Of a stretch of 64,000 bases of DNA, positions 3,019-6,617 are shown in pieces. Source of the DNA: Mycobacterium sp. ITM-2016-00317 (lineage in GTDB: Bacteria > Actinomycetota > Actinomycetes > Mycobacteriales > Mycobacteriaceae); assembly GCF_002968295.1 (NCBI RefSeq), contig NZ_CP134399.1, positions 3,224,001 through 3,288,000 on the forward strand, in the 5' to 3' direction. The notes under the pieces were generated by a model. That model ran no database searches, was not told where the DNA came from, and worked only from the letters and a program-made list of their open reading frames with translations. Made by a program: the position numbers and the translations under genes. The number at the start of each line of letters is the position of its first letter. Position 1 is the stretch's first letter.

Positions 3019-4962
3019 CTAGTGTGTGGCCGGATCAGTCAGGATCTCGACCATGGCCGGCCCCGGGTGGCTGAGCGCCTCGGAGATCGCGTGACCGAGA
3101 TCCCGTGGATCGGTGACGCGTCTGCCGTAGCCGCCGCAGTTGCGTGCGTACGCGGCGAAGTCCGGGTTCTGCAGAGAGGTCTGCCAGACCGCGTATTCGG
3201 CGCTGCGCTGTTCCTCGCTGATCTTCGCGAGTTCACCGTTGTTGAGCAGGATGTGCGTGATGTTCATGTCGTACTTCACTGCGGTGGTGAAGTCGGCGAG
3301 GTACTGACCGAAGCCGCCGTCGCCGGTGATGGCGACGATGGGACGGTCCGGTGCGGCGGCCCAGGCGCCCATCGCCGCAGGGAATCCGAAGCCGATGGAT
3401 CCGAGATACCCGGACATCAGCACCGATTGTTCTGAGGCTTCGAAGTACCGACCGAACGAGTAGGCGTGATTGCCGACGTCCACCGTCAGTACCGCATTCG
3501 GCGGTACCAGTCGGTTGAGCTCTTCGAATACGGTTGCGGCAGCGACTCGGCCGTCTAGATGCTTGACCGCACGCCGGGTCTTTTCCGTGCGCCACACCGA
3601 CCAACGTTCGGCAACCTCCGGACGCTGATCCACCAGCGCGGAGTTCGGGTGGAGGCCGTCGAGAAGGGCGGCGGCGCTGACCCCCGCATCACCGAGTACC
3701 GGCACCGTGACGGGGCGGAACCGGCCCAGCATCATGGGGTCGGTGTCCACCTGGATGATCGGCTTGTACGGCGATATCCCGGTGTGATTCGAGAAGGACG
3801 CGCCGAATACCAGCAGAAGGTCGGCCTTGTTCATCATCCACGATGCGACCGGTGTACCGGACCGGCCCAGCACGCCGCAGGCGAGGGGGTGGGCGTCCGA
3901 GATCTGCCCCTTGGCTTTAAAAGTGGTCAGCACCGGCGCATTCAGCCGTTCGGCCAGTGCGATGATCGCCGGCATGTCGAACTTCGCGCCGGCACCGACG
4001 ACGACAAGCGGTCTGGTCGCGGTGCGAATCAACTCGAGGGCCTGGCCGACCGAGGCCGGCGGGGGAGACACCCGAAGGTCGGGCATGCGGCCTTCTGGGC
4101 CGGAGGTCGATGCGGCGGGGGCCGCGAGGATCTGCACTTCGTCGGGCAGCACGAGATGGCCTACTCCGCGATCGATGATGGCGTGCTTGAGGGCCATCGT
4201 CATCAGCTCCGCATGGTCGGAGCCAGAACGCACCATCGCCGAGTACACCGACACGTCGGCGAATGCCGCGAGCAGATCGATGTCCTGGAACGCGCCCTTG
4301 CCCGCCACGGAGGAATCGACGTTCCCGGATAGGGCCAGAACCGGTGCGCGGTCGGATTTCGCGTCGTAGAGGCCGGTCAGCAAGTTCGTGGAGCCTGGAC
4401 CGGCGATACCCAAGCATGCGGCGGGCCTGCCGGTCAGCTTTCCGTAGGCGGCAGCTGCGAATGCTGCGGCACCCTCGTGGCGGATGCCGAAATACCGGAT
4501 CTTCCCGGTGGTTTCGGCGCGATGCATGGCCTCGGCGATGCCGAGGTTCGAGTGGCCGACCATGCCGAAGACCGTGTCGACGCCCCAGTTGGTCATGGTC
4601 TCGACCAGAACGTCACTCACCGTACGCACGTGCGGGGCGGGTTCAGGTACACCCACGTAGACGCCGTCCGCGCGAGCATCGACGGGGTAGGTGCGGACAT
4701 TGAAGTCGGGGCCACCTGCGGCCTCGCCGGTGAACGGATCGAAGTCGAAACCGTGCCACGGGCAACGGATCTTGTCGTTCTCGAGGGTGCCCTGACCAAG
4801 CGGGCCACCCTGATGGGGACACCGGTTGTCGATGGCACCGTAACGGCCGTCGAGTCTGGTCAGCGCGACTGTCTTGAGTCCGACCGGGCAGGTGGTCACT
4901 TCGCCCTCGTCGAGATCTCCGGCGTCGACGGCCTTGTGCCAGGTGAGACCTTGGTCAGTCAC
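3019..4962 (-). CDS. Rieske domain fused to ThDP-dependent (acetolactate synthase-like) enzyme
   Basis: A 647-residue fusion. Residues 1-105 form a Rieske ferredoxin-type [2Fe-2S] domain (ligands CPH at 48-50 and CPWH at 67-70). Residues 115 to the end form a full thiamine-diphosphate enzyme: a pyrimidine-binding domain with the catalytic Glu (RHEGAA, about 163), a central domain, and a pyrophosphate domain with GDGGFGQ and LLNNGE. The ThDP part resembles acetolactate synthase/pyruvate oxidase/sulfoacetaldehyde acetyltransferase relatives; the substrate is not known. The GTG start at 4962 overlaps the stop of the upstream Rieske/glutamate-synthase-like gene by four bases (GTGA), so the two are translationally coupled. 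A longer open frame up to 5208 overlaps the upstream gene and is composition noise. A Rieske domain fused to a ThDP enzyme is unusual. Confidence 0.85.
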   Translation of the reverse strand: MTDQGLTWHKAVDAGDLDEGEVTTCPVGLKTVALTRLDGRYGAIDNRCPHQGGPLGQGTLENDKIRCPWHGFDFDPFTGEAAGGPDFNVRTYPVDARADGVYVGVPEPAPHVRTVSDVLVETMTNWGVDTVFGMVGHSNLGIAEAMHRAETTGKIRYFGIRHEGAAAFAAAAYGKLTGRPAACLGIAGPGSTNLLTGLYDAKSDRAPVLALSGNVDSSVAGKGAFQDIDLLAAFADVSVYSAMVRSGSDHAELMTMALKHAIIDRGVGHLVLPDEVQILAAPAASTSGPEGRMPDLRVSPPPASVGQALELIRTATRPLVVVGAGAKFDMPAIIALAERLNAPVLTTFKAKGQISDAHPLACGVLGRSGTPVASWMMNKADLLLVFGASFSNHTGISPYKPIIQVDTDPMMLGRFRPVTVPVLGDAGVSAAALLDGLHPNSALVDQRPEVAERWSVWRTEKTRRAVKHLDGRVAAATVFEELNRLVPPNAVLTVDVGNHAYSFGRYFEASEQSVLMSGYLGSIGFGFPAAMGAWAAAPDRPIVAITGDGGFGQYLADFTTAVKYDMNITHILLNNGELAKISEEQRSAEYAVWQTSLQNPDFAAYARNCGGYGRRVTDPRDLGHAISEALSHPGPAMVEILTDPATH

Positions 4963-6617
4963 AGCGGAATAGCTCCTGCAAAAGGGACCCCGCTCAGATA
5001 GGCGAAGTCTCGGTCGAAGGTGACGAGGTCGTCGAGTTCGAAGTCGGCAAGACGCTGGTGCCCGCACGCCCGGGCAAGGACCACCATCAGGTCGACGGTC
5101 GCCCGCAGGAACCGGTTCAACCGCTCTGCTGCTGCGCTCACAGGAAGCCGGGCCCGTAGGCGTGGATCTTGCGTGGCGATGCCGGCCGGGCAGGTGTTGG
5201 TGTTGCATGCGCGCATCCCGACGCAGCCGATTGCCTGGAGCGCCGCGTTCGAGAGACCGATGGCGTCGGCGCCCAACGCCAGCGCTTTGACCATGTCCGC
5301 CGGTGTGCGCATGCCCCCCGTGACGGCGAGCGTCACGTGGCGTTCGCCCGCCTTGTCCAGATGCCGCCGGGCACGTGACAGTGCGGGGATCGTGGGCACC
5401 GATATGTTGTCCCGGAACAGCGTGGGCGCTGCACCGGTGCCGCCGCCGCGGCCGTCGAGGATGAGGTAATCCACGCCGATCTCGAGCGCGGCATCGATAT
5501 CACGCTCGATGTGCTGCGCACTCATCTTGTAGCCGACCGGGATTCCGCCGGAGACGTCACGGACCTGCGCGGCGAAATCTCGGAATTGGTCGAGGGACGT
5601 CCATTCGGGAAACCGTGCCGGGGAGATCGCCGCCGTGCCCGGGGGAAGGCCCCGGACCTCGGCGATCCGGCCCACCACCTTGGGGCCGGGGAGGTGTCCA
5701 CCGGTACCGGTCTTGGCCCCCTGGCCCCCCTTGAAGTGGAAGGCTTGGACTTTGCTCATGTGCTCGAAGCTCCAGCCGAACAGGCCGGATGCCAGCTCGT
5801 AGAAGTACTTCGAATTCTCTTGCTGCTCTTCGGGAAGCATGCCGCCCTCACCCGAACAGATTCCCGTCCCAGCAAGTTCGGCACCCGCCGCGAGCGCGGT
5901 CTTGGCTTCCTGGGAAAGAGCGCCGAAGCTCATGTCGCTGATGAACAACGGAATGTCGAGCACCAGTGGACGTGCCGCGTTCGGGCCGATGACCGTCGTG
6001 GTGCTCACCGGTTCGTCGTCGGTCAGCGGCAGCCGGGCGAGCTGCGCGGTGAGCACTTGGATCGAATCCCACGACGGCAGGAGCTCGCGTGGCACGCCCA
6101 TGGCCGCCGTCGGACCATGCCGGCCGACTCTGCTCAATCCATGTGCCGCCAGTTCGTGAATCTGTGTGACGAACGGTTCCTCGGCGGTATCGGATGCGCT
6201 GATCCACCTGCCCTGGTAGCCATCGTCGGCGTAGGTCTGCGGATTGCTGCGCGCGAACTCGGCGATGGCCGACTCGTCGACGTACACGGCGCCGTCGGAC
6301 ACCCACGTGGGGAAGGTGGCCAATGCCATTGCGGGGTTGACCGGCGACACGCCGGAATCGATCTCGTAGCGCCACCCGTGGACGCCGCACACCACGAGGT
6401 CGCCCTCAACGCGGCCGTCCGACAGAAGCGCCCCGCGGTGCGCACACCGGCCGTACAACGCCGAGACGTCGTCGCCGCGACGGACCAGCACGACGTCGAC
6501 ACCTGCCGCGACGATCGCATACGGGGTGTTGTCGGGGAGTTCGGATAGCGAGGCGACGCGCAGTGTTCTGCCTGTTTCAATTGTCACGCGTGCCTGTCCC
6601 CATCGTTCAACTGTCAA
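4959..6617 (-). CDS. Rieske domain fused to FMN-binding glutamate synthase-like domain
   Basis: A 552-residue fusion. An N-terminal Rieske domain (CAH at 58-60, CGVH at 77-80) is followed by a glutamate-synthase central/FMN domain (about 170-540). The latter has conserved GltB features: SFGALS, a Gly-rich KGGQGAKTG stretch, GRGGGTG, and the C-x5-C-x4-C cluster (CVGMRAC/NTNTC) that binds 3Fe-4S in glutamate synthase. There is no glutamine amidotransferase domain and no GltD-like NAD(P)H subunit nearby, so ordinary glutamate synthase activity is unlikely. Electrons presumably enter through the Rieske centre. It is the first gene of a two-gene operon with the Rieske/ThDP enzyme, joined by a GTGA overlap. 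The start could also be a GTG about ten codons further in. Confidence 0.83.
   Translation of the reverse strand: MTVERWGQARVTIETGRTLRVASLSELPDNTPYAIVAAGVDVVLVRRGDDVSALYGRCAHRGALLSDGRVEGDLVVCGVHGWRYEIDSGVSPVNPAMALATFPTWVSDGAVYVDESAIAEFARSNPQTYADDGYQGRWISASDTAEEPFVTQIHELAAHGLSRVGRHGPTAAMGVPRELLPSWDSIQVLTAQLARLPLTDDEPVSTTTVIGPNAARPLVLDIPLFISDMSFGALSQEAKTALAAGAELAGTGICSGEGGMLPEEQQENSKYFYELASGLFGWSFEHMSKVQAFHFKGGQGAKTGTGGHLPGPKVVGRIAEVRGLPPGTAAISPARFPEWTSLDQFRDFAAQVRDVSGGIPVGYKMSAQHIERDIDAALEIGVDYLILDGRGGGTGAAPTLFRDNISVPTIPALSRARRHLDKAGERHVTLAVTGGMRTPADMVKALALGADAIGLSNAALQAIGCVGMRACNTNTCPAGIATQDPRLRARLPVSAAAERLNRFLRATVDLMVVLARACGHQRLADFELDDLVTFDRDFAYLSGVPFAGAIPL

Follow-up and report, generated by a model that had tools for sequence, protein, structure and literature searches.

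Two overlapping minus-strand genes in the genome of Mycobacterium sp. ITM-2016-00317, within a stretch of 64,000 nucleotides (contig NZ_CP134399.1, positions 3,224,001 to 3,288,000; hereafter the window, whose own numbering is used below), encode different enzymes that each begin with a Rieske [2Fe-2S] domain. Gene A codes for a flavin mononucleotide (FMN)/[3Fe-4S] protein that resembles glutamate synthase, and gene B for a thiamine diphosphate (ThDP) enzyme that resembles pyruvate oxidase. Our analysis identifies these genes as a real and widely spread pair of Rieske-fused enzymes, assembled from known parts, which has been repeatedly rearranged but co-retained. We suggest, with a probability of about 35%, that the pair represents an undescribed aerobic system for 2-oxo acid oxidation, in which a ThDP enzyme with a Rieske outlet is coupled to an FMN/[3Fe-4S] dehydrogenase with an exchangeable head (Rieske or CDGSH), with a DUF5996-family protein as a third component, and which would be spread as a patchy module over at least six phyla.

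Domain make-up of the Rieske-headed pair

The two genes carry the following features.

4959..6617, minus strand: gene A, Rieske-FMN/[3Fe-4S] glutamate-synthase-like protein, 552 amino acids counted from TTG
6309..6560, minus strand: Rieske [2Fe-2S] domain of A, residues 20-103 (Pfam PF00355, 2.7e-15; ligands C58, H60, C77 and H80)
5061..6059, minus strand: glutamate-synthase-type FMN core of A, residues 187-519 (Pfam Glu_synthase PF01645, 3.2e-87)
5190..5225, minus strand: [3Fe-4S] cysteine motif of A, C465, C471 and C476 (alignment to glutamate synthase)
4959..4962, minus strand: GTGA stop/start overlap of A and B (read in the sequence)
3019..4962, minus strand: gene B, Rieske-ThDP enzyme, pyruvate-oxidase-like, 647 amino acids from GTG
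4684..4944, minus strand: Rieske [2Fe-2S] domain of B, residues 7-93 (Pfam PF00355, 7.4e-17; ligands C48, H50, C67 and H70)
4270..4623, minus strand: TPP_enzyme_N of B, holding Glu163 (the PoxB Glu50 position) and the invariant His137 (Pfam, 3.6e-34)
3664..4044, minus strand: TPP_enzyme_M of B, a middle domain of nucleotide/FAD type (FAD, flavin adenine dinucleotide; Pfam PF00205, 2.8e-32)
3043..3480, minus strand: TPP_enzyme_C of B, holding GDG 547-549, N575, Lys580 and Glu584 (Pfam, 3e-35)

The four-base overlap bears out the proposal, made in an earlier reading of the DNA alone (the sequence-only reading), that the two genes form one translational unit. The same reading had described B as a Rieske domain that continues into a complete ThDP enzyme, and A as a Rieske domain followed by an FMN/[3Fe-4S] glutamate-synthase-like core without an amidotransferase; Pfam agrees on both counts, with all three ThDP domains present in B, as does the alignment for A, in which a Pfam scan found no glutamine amidotransferase domain and matched only Rieske, Glu_synthase, FMN_dh and IMPDH. 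The deposited form of A (P0123) has 542 residues and agrees with a GTG start at 6587, which is probably the start in place of TTG and would give this shorter length.

The Rieske heads are a constant feature of both families. PF00355 was found in 120 of 120 relatives of B (of 8000 scored) and in 118 of 120 relatives of A among the matches listed, the two exceptions being short at the N-terminus (488 amino acids). Both heads carry the motif C-x-H-x16-C-x2-H and so satisfy the Rieske-type ferredoxin motif C-x-H-x(15-17)-C-x2-H, as given in PMC4814904. In the B alignment every one of the 78 rows (the query plus 77 of 82 cluster members, five being removed by a length filter of 600-690 amino acids) keeps all four ligands, as does every one of the 39 rows of the A alignment (the query plus 38 of 47 members, nine being removed by a filter of 500-600), and the [3Fe-4S] cysteines and main ThDP motif residues are likewise invariant in the aligned rows. 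In addition, the 37 B matches (36 distinct) from the three genome draws described below, taken at E <= 1e-150 in the phylum draws and 1e-200 in the genus draw, all begin at residue 10 or earlier and so include the Rieske domain. No B core without a Rieske domain was present among these matches, as judged indirectly from their start residues (1-10), and a core of that kind with similar identity would probably have passed the thresholds. The sequence-only reading had regarded a Rieske fusion as unusual for either partner; instead, the homologues are fused and fusion is the rule in both families. A frame artefact or chance as the source of the Rieske parts is excluded by the Pfam domains, the invariant ligands and the conserved arrangement of the pair.

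Distribution of the pair and exchange of the A head

We scanned a genome collection with the B alignment and fetched the best 80 loci of at least 531 relatives, calling genes with a simple codon-score script whose start positions are approximate. Twenty-one of these loci are mycobacterial. The other 59, many of them from metagenome-assembled genomes, match B at 58-66% identity over nearly the whole protein and carry labels that include Actinobacteria, Acidobacteria, Cyanobacteria, Planctomycetes, Gemmatimonadota, Myxococcota and others. Forty-seven of the 80 also hold an A-family gene, namely 19 of the 21 mycobacterial loci and 28 of the 59 others; this count includes L050, where A is a 47%-identical fragment on the opposite strand, two genes away. 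Loci with both genes are labelled Actinomycetota, Acidobacteriota, Cyanobacteriota, Planctomycetota, Gemmatimonadota, Myxococcota and Bacteroidota, and the two genes occur as a pair in no fewer than six bacterial phyla. Among the 47 loci, 28 (18 mycobacterial and 10 others) keep the exact four-base overlap, the gene order is B-A in L057, L063, L071 and L072, and the genes are divergent in L064. The closest species-named relatives of both proteins, among the matches listed, are from Mycolicibacterium vaccae (93-98% identity). At two mycobacterial loci an intact B accompanies an A that is truncated after its Rieske part (L019:9478-9960) or carried into the B frame by one frameshift (L022:8354-11941, in the same genome as G280).

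Genome draws gave a measure of co-occurrence. Among 148 genomes of the genus, A and B were found in the same 14 and were adjacent in each, with A frameshifted in G280; this patchiness (14 of 148) suggests gain and loss of the module within the genus. The Actinomycetota draw, of 248 genomes each at least 95% complete, held B in nine, A in eight and both in six (Fisher p = 7.6e-9, rising to 1.6e-7 once the window genome is set aside, with kinship ignored). Where both were present they were adjacent (G000, G213 and G227), separated by a DUF5996-like gene (G242) or apart (G071 and G165), while B alone was found in G093, G097 and G182 (three of nine) and A alone in G024 and G119 (two of eight). A draw of 199 genomes centred on an Acidobacteriota genome held B in 13, A in 11 and both in six, five of them with adjacent genes (p = 8.5e-6, again ignoring kinship); here B lacked A in seven of 13 genomes and A lacked B in five of 11. 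A whole-genome search covering 21 of the 31 non-mycobacterial loci without A located it elsewhere in 10 of the 21 genomes, as nine nearly full-length copies and one partial gene that seems to stop at the edge of its contig; the remaining 11 genomes gave no A. Furthermore, A and B distances correlate across 26 non-mycobacterial genomes that have both genes, eight of which have them apart (r = 0.49, reached in 0 of 5000 permutations). Co-occurrence of the two genes, whose absence elsewhere would have refuted the sequence-only reading, was apparent in all three draws, and the pair is conserved far outside the genus. A second, divergent copy of A, 77% identical to that of the window and without a B of its own, lies about 5 kb from the pair in G333 (L102:6427-8055).

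Three of the 11 A matches in the Acidobacteriota-centred draw start only at residue 132-140 (G408, G424 and G438), and their N-termini (L113-L115) hold CDGSH motifs instead of a Rieske domain. PF09360 matches two stretches in L113 (6.2e-21) and in L115 (2.2e-16), and one stretch in L114, a shorter gene call (2.2e-6, just below the curated cut-off); over the core the three are 64-65% identical to A. In a tree of 54 cores, from which we omitted 14 of 19 mycobacterial A rows (near-copies), L092, L095, L096, L098, both L102 copies of A and L120, the trio forms one clade (100/98) within the Rieske-headed rows (enclosing forks 99/95 and 97/96, with the bootstrap not fully settled). Since this clade is nested among Rieske-headed rows, the exchange was likely from Rieske to CDGSH. 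At E <= 1e-150, B went unmatched in all three of these genomes.

The tree outgroups, which we take to be MgsC-type (L128, L136) and membrane-anchored GltS-like proteins (L129, L130, L132, L137), share with A a stand-alone FMN/Glu_synthase core without a glutaminase domain but are 31-37% identical to it, and no Rieske motif was seen by eye in nine inspected N-termini of outgroup type. Two relatives of A carry the database name 'methylamine---glutamate N-methyltransferase subunit C'. Type 5 CDGSH (CISD) proteins are described as fusions of a tandem CDGSH with a glutamate synthase FMN domain (PMC3174974, PMC5859297). Like A, they join this kind of core to a [2Fe-2S] head, but their head is a 3Cys-1His CDGSH, whereas that of A is a Rieske domain without tandem CDGSH; the three CDGSH-headed forms found here, from genomes without B, resemble them by description and may be of the same clade. 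What is new here, as placed by the core tree, is that a CDGSH-FMN-core fusion nests inside a Rieske-headed family that pairs with B.

Neighbouring genes and the probable Mycobacterium smegmatis counterpart

A DUF5996-type gene lies directly before A in seven of the 21 mycobacterial loci, with four-base overlaps in three; PF19459 matches the three of these seven genes that were scanned (1e-106 to 5e-131). A second DUF5996-like family, related to the mycobacterial set (hhalign 93%, E 2.7e-7, 256 columns), occurs at 11 of the 59 other loci no more than two genes away from A or B, and immediately beside them in 10. Using a profile (A5) built from neighbours of A and B, which biases the hit list towards that subfamily, we identified this second family in 16 of the 248 Actinomycetota-draw genomes, nine of them above 100 bits; six of these nine have B (p = 2.2e-8). 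A gene of this kind adjoins B in G097 (both copies), G182, G242 and G227, and in the window genome the DUF5996 gene lies 277 kb from the pair. The DUF5996-like gene is a recurrent third neighbour and likely an accessory of the A-B module; the term DUF5996 was not found in the open-access papers searched. In G000 a Rieske protein or domain that shares 46% identity with the B head (G000:C1:3486491-3486769) is encoded some 19 kb away from the single DUF5996 gene identified in that genome.

Two kinds of putative redox protein also recur. A flavodoxin-like FMN_red gene (by Pfam in two) lies within three genes of B in nine of the 59 loci, all without A at the locus, and A was found in none of the five of these genomes that were searched (p = 0.035 against the other 16 genomes). 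A ferric-reductase-like membrane protein with a Rieske tail (domains scanned in L077) lies near the module in L045, L069, L077, L078, L085, L119 and L121, while in L089 and L092 it accompanies only A. It is a third Rieske fusion in the vicinity of A and B. At three loci it forms a conserved pair with a Cys-containing protein without a Pfam match (L045:2983-4819, L069:5587-7405, L085:11234-13037); in L094 only the Cys-containing gene of this pair was recognised, beside A.

Other contexts are rarer. Malate synthase and isocitrate lyase-family genes precede B in L066 (7032-11926), and L110 (G165) has genes of similar sizes and order, making a glyoxylate link possible. In four A-less genomes of the Acidobacteriota-centred draw (L123-L126), B lies beside genes of about 650 and 259 amino acids, which in L124 encode a TonB-dependent receptor and a 3-keto-disaccharide hydrolase, with a methionyl aminopeptidase gene after B. 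Because these contexts occur in few loci, we have not used them as a main clue. In the window, a P-type ATPase-like gene (identified by eye; 438-2945) runs in the same direction as B and starts 74 bases past its end. A large gene in the same orientation also lies downstream of B in a close relative (L009); in many of the other mycobacterial loci the gene at this place is convergent or unrelated.

The sequence-only reading had suggested that the pair might be undescribed, and we found no functional study of it in the accessible portion of the open-access literature, subscription papers lying outside this scope. One M. smegmatis study lists an ordered gene set that is lower in zinc-replete than in zinc-limited wild-type cells, made up of MSMEG_5593 ('pyruvate dehydrogenase'), MSMEG_5594 ('ferredoxin-dependent glutamate synthase') and MSMEG_5595 (MarR; PMC8866557); other papers place MSMEG_5594 and MSMEG_5593 in protein lists (PMC8281650, PMC8525676) and MSMEG_5594 in an expression table (PMC4881515). 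M. smegmatis relatives of A are 79-80% identical to it, and MSMEG_5593-5594 is probably the counterpart of the pair, by annotation, gene order and these relatives rather than by a locus-tag sequence match.

Proposed function and alternatives

From what was observed of the domains of both proteins, their invariant ligands, the conservation of the pair, the replacement of the A head by CDGSH motifs and the recurrent neighbours, we tentatively propose that A and B act one after the other, each unloading electrons via its own [2Fe-2S] head to a common acceptor. A would generate a 2-oxo acid by oxidising an alpha-amino or alpha-hydroxy acid, with electrons passing from FMN through the [3Fe-4S] cluster to the Rieske head, and B would decarboxylate and oxidise that 2-oxo acid on ThDP, with electrons reaching its own Rieske head probably via FAD. 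The acceptor may be the flavodoxin-like neighbour or else a membrane protein, for which the Rieske-tailed ferric-reductase-like neighbour is an example. FMN, [3Fe-4S] and ThDP are the predicted cofactors, and occupancy of B by FAD is uncertain.

Structural alignment matches the ThDP fold of B with those of Escherichia coli PoxB and Corynebacterium glutamicum PQO over 516-529 residues (27-28% identity), and all three have a Glu at the PoxB Glu50 position, the GDG...N motif and the Phe of the FQ motif, so that a ThDP site of pyruvate oxidase type (catalytic Glu, GDG...N) is present in B. Phe225 and Glu584, which we take to correspond to Phe121 and Glu483 of LpPOX/POX, are invariant across the B alignment. 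B differs from PoxB and PQO in its N-terminal Rieske domain, in having no C-terminal membrane extension, and in Lys580, which replaces Phe465, presumably an active-site Phe (PoxB F465, LpPOX F479). D406 matches PoxB D292, and most other positions that we take to be FAD contacts differ; ADP-binding relatives share the middle-domain fold in a structure search. The best NCBIfam model, PRK08611, scores 390.5 bits, under its cut-off of 742, and of the 25 matches listed, all those to models of pyruvate oxidase or pyruvate dehydrogenase likewise fall under the respective cut-off.

A, for its part, shares with the glutamate synthase alpha subunit and ferredoxin-dependent glutamate synthase an FMN TIM barrel and, by alignment, the [3Fe-4S] pattern C-x5-C-x4-C (C465-x5-C471-x4-C476). 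It differs from them in its Rieske head, in having no glutaminase domain, and at what we take to be two functional positions of ferredoxin-glutamate synthase: Q978 is replaced by His (H308, in 39 of 39 rows), and E1013 is lost, the equivalent position 343 being variable. The AlphaFold model of A has a mean confidence score (pLDDT) of 76.9 and is weak at 130-175 and in core loops.

These features bear on whether electrons might instead flow from B to A, as the sequence-only reading had raised: B would oxidise a 2-oxo acid and, by Rieske-to-Rieske transfer, supply the FMN of A for reduction of a 2-imino or 2-oxo acid, for example in reductive amination with free ammonia. We consider this less likely than the sequential oxidation. 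B is without A in 3/9 and 7/13 of the B-positive genomes of the two phylum draws, so A is not an obligatory electron acceptor of B, and A is without B in 2/8 and 5/11; the obligatory form of such a flow is thus less supported, and the redox partner shared by both enzymes that the same reading had considered fits better. An aminating role for A is not favoured either, since it has no amidotransferase and the presumed Q978 and E1013 are not kept. In redox potential, the FMN of glutamate synthase lies below the Rieske and CDGSH clusters known from other proteins, which also speaks against flow from B to A. Somewhat more doubtful is the idea that B works non-oxidatively, as a ThDP lyase or dione hydrolase, with a Rieske head that is structural or a redox switch and with A acting on a neighbouring step. 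All 78 B rows carry His137 and Lys580 at positions that are Asp and Phe in PoxB, these residues fall at or near positions 28 and 484 of cyclohexane-1,2-dione hydrolase, mutated in PDB 4d5g (an approximate offset match), and structure searches place non-oxidative ThDP enzymes roughly level with PoxB; yet every aligned B row keeps the complete Rieske ligand set as well as Phe225 and Glu584 at the presumed pyruvate oxidase positions, and the partner's head has been swapped for another redox cluster. Least probable, to our minds, is that the heads serve as sensors or Fe-S stores tuning two stress-response enzymes in an operon for redox or metal homeostasis. The zinc response and MarR regulator of the likely M. 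smegmatis counterpart are consistent with this, as are pirin-like and peroxiredoxin-like genes (by eye) and zinc-type alcohol dehydrogenases (Pfam) at some loci, but such neighbours are scattered, lying anywhere in the locus (in 5, 4 and 12 of the 80 loci, respectively), and the expression link is by name and gene order rather than by sequence match.

Several observations also weigh against the proposed sequential oxidation by A and B with a common acceptor. The invariant Lys at the PoxB Phe465 position implies that B is not a plain pyruvate oxidase. In structure searches, non-oxidative ThDP enzymes stand about equally high. Each gene also occurs alone, and a strict two-step pathway is therefore not universal. 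Rieske-tailed membrane neighbours were seen in only five of the 59 non-mycobacterial first-scan loci and in none of the 21 mycobacterial ones, the redox potentials used in the argument belong to other proteins, and the CDGSH swap is a single evolutionary event in three related rows, so that a connection with the lack of B is no more than suggested.

ThDP oxidases are known to pass their electrons to FAD and then to oxygen or quinone, or to [4Fe-4S] clusters. If the proposed sequential oxidation is correct, a Rieske outlet built into a ThDP enzyme would be new wiring in aerobes. Data sets that label the likely M. smegmatis counterparts 'pyruvate dehydrogenase' and 'ferredoxin-dependent glutamate synthase' may be misread, and DUF5996 gains a testable functional context. 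Finally, an FMN core with two different [2Fe-2S] heads provides a natural experiment on the role of the head.

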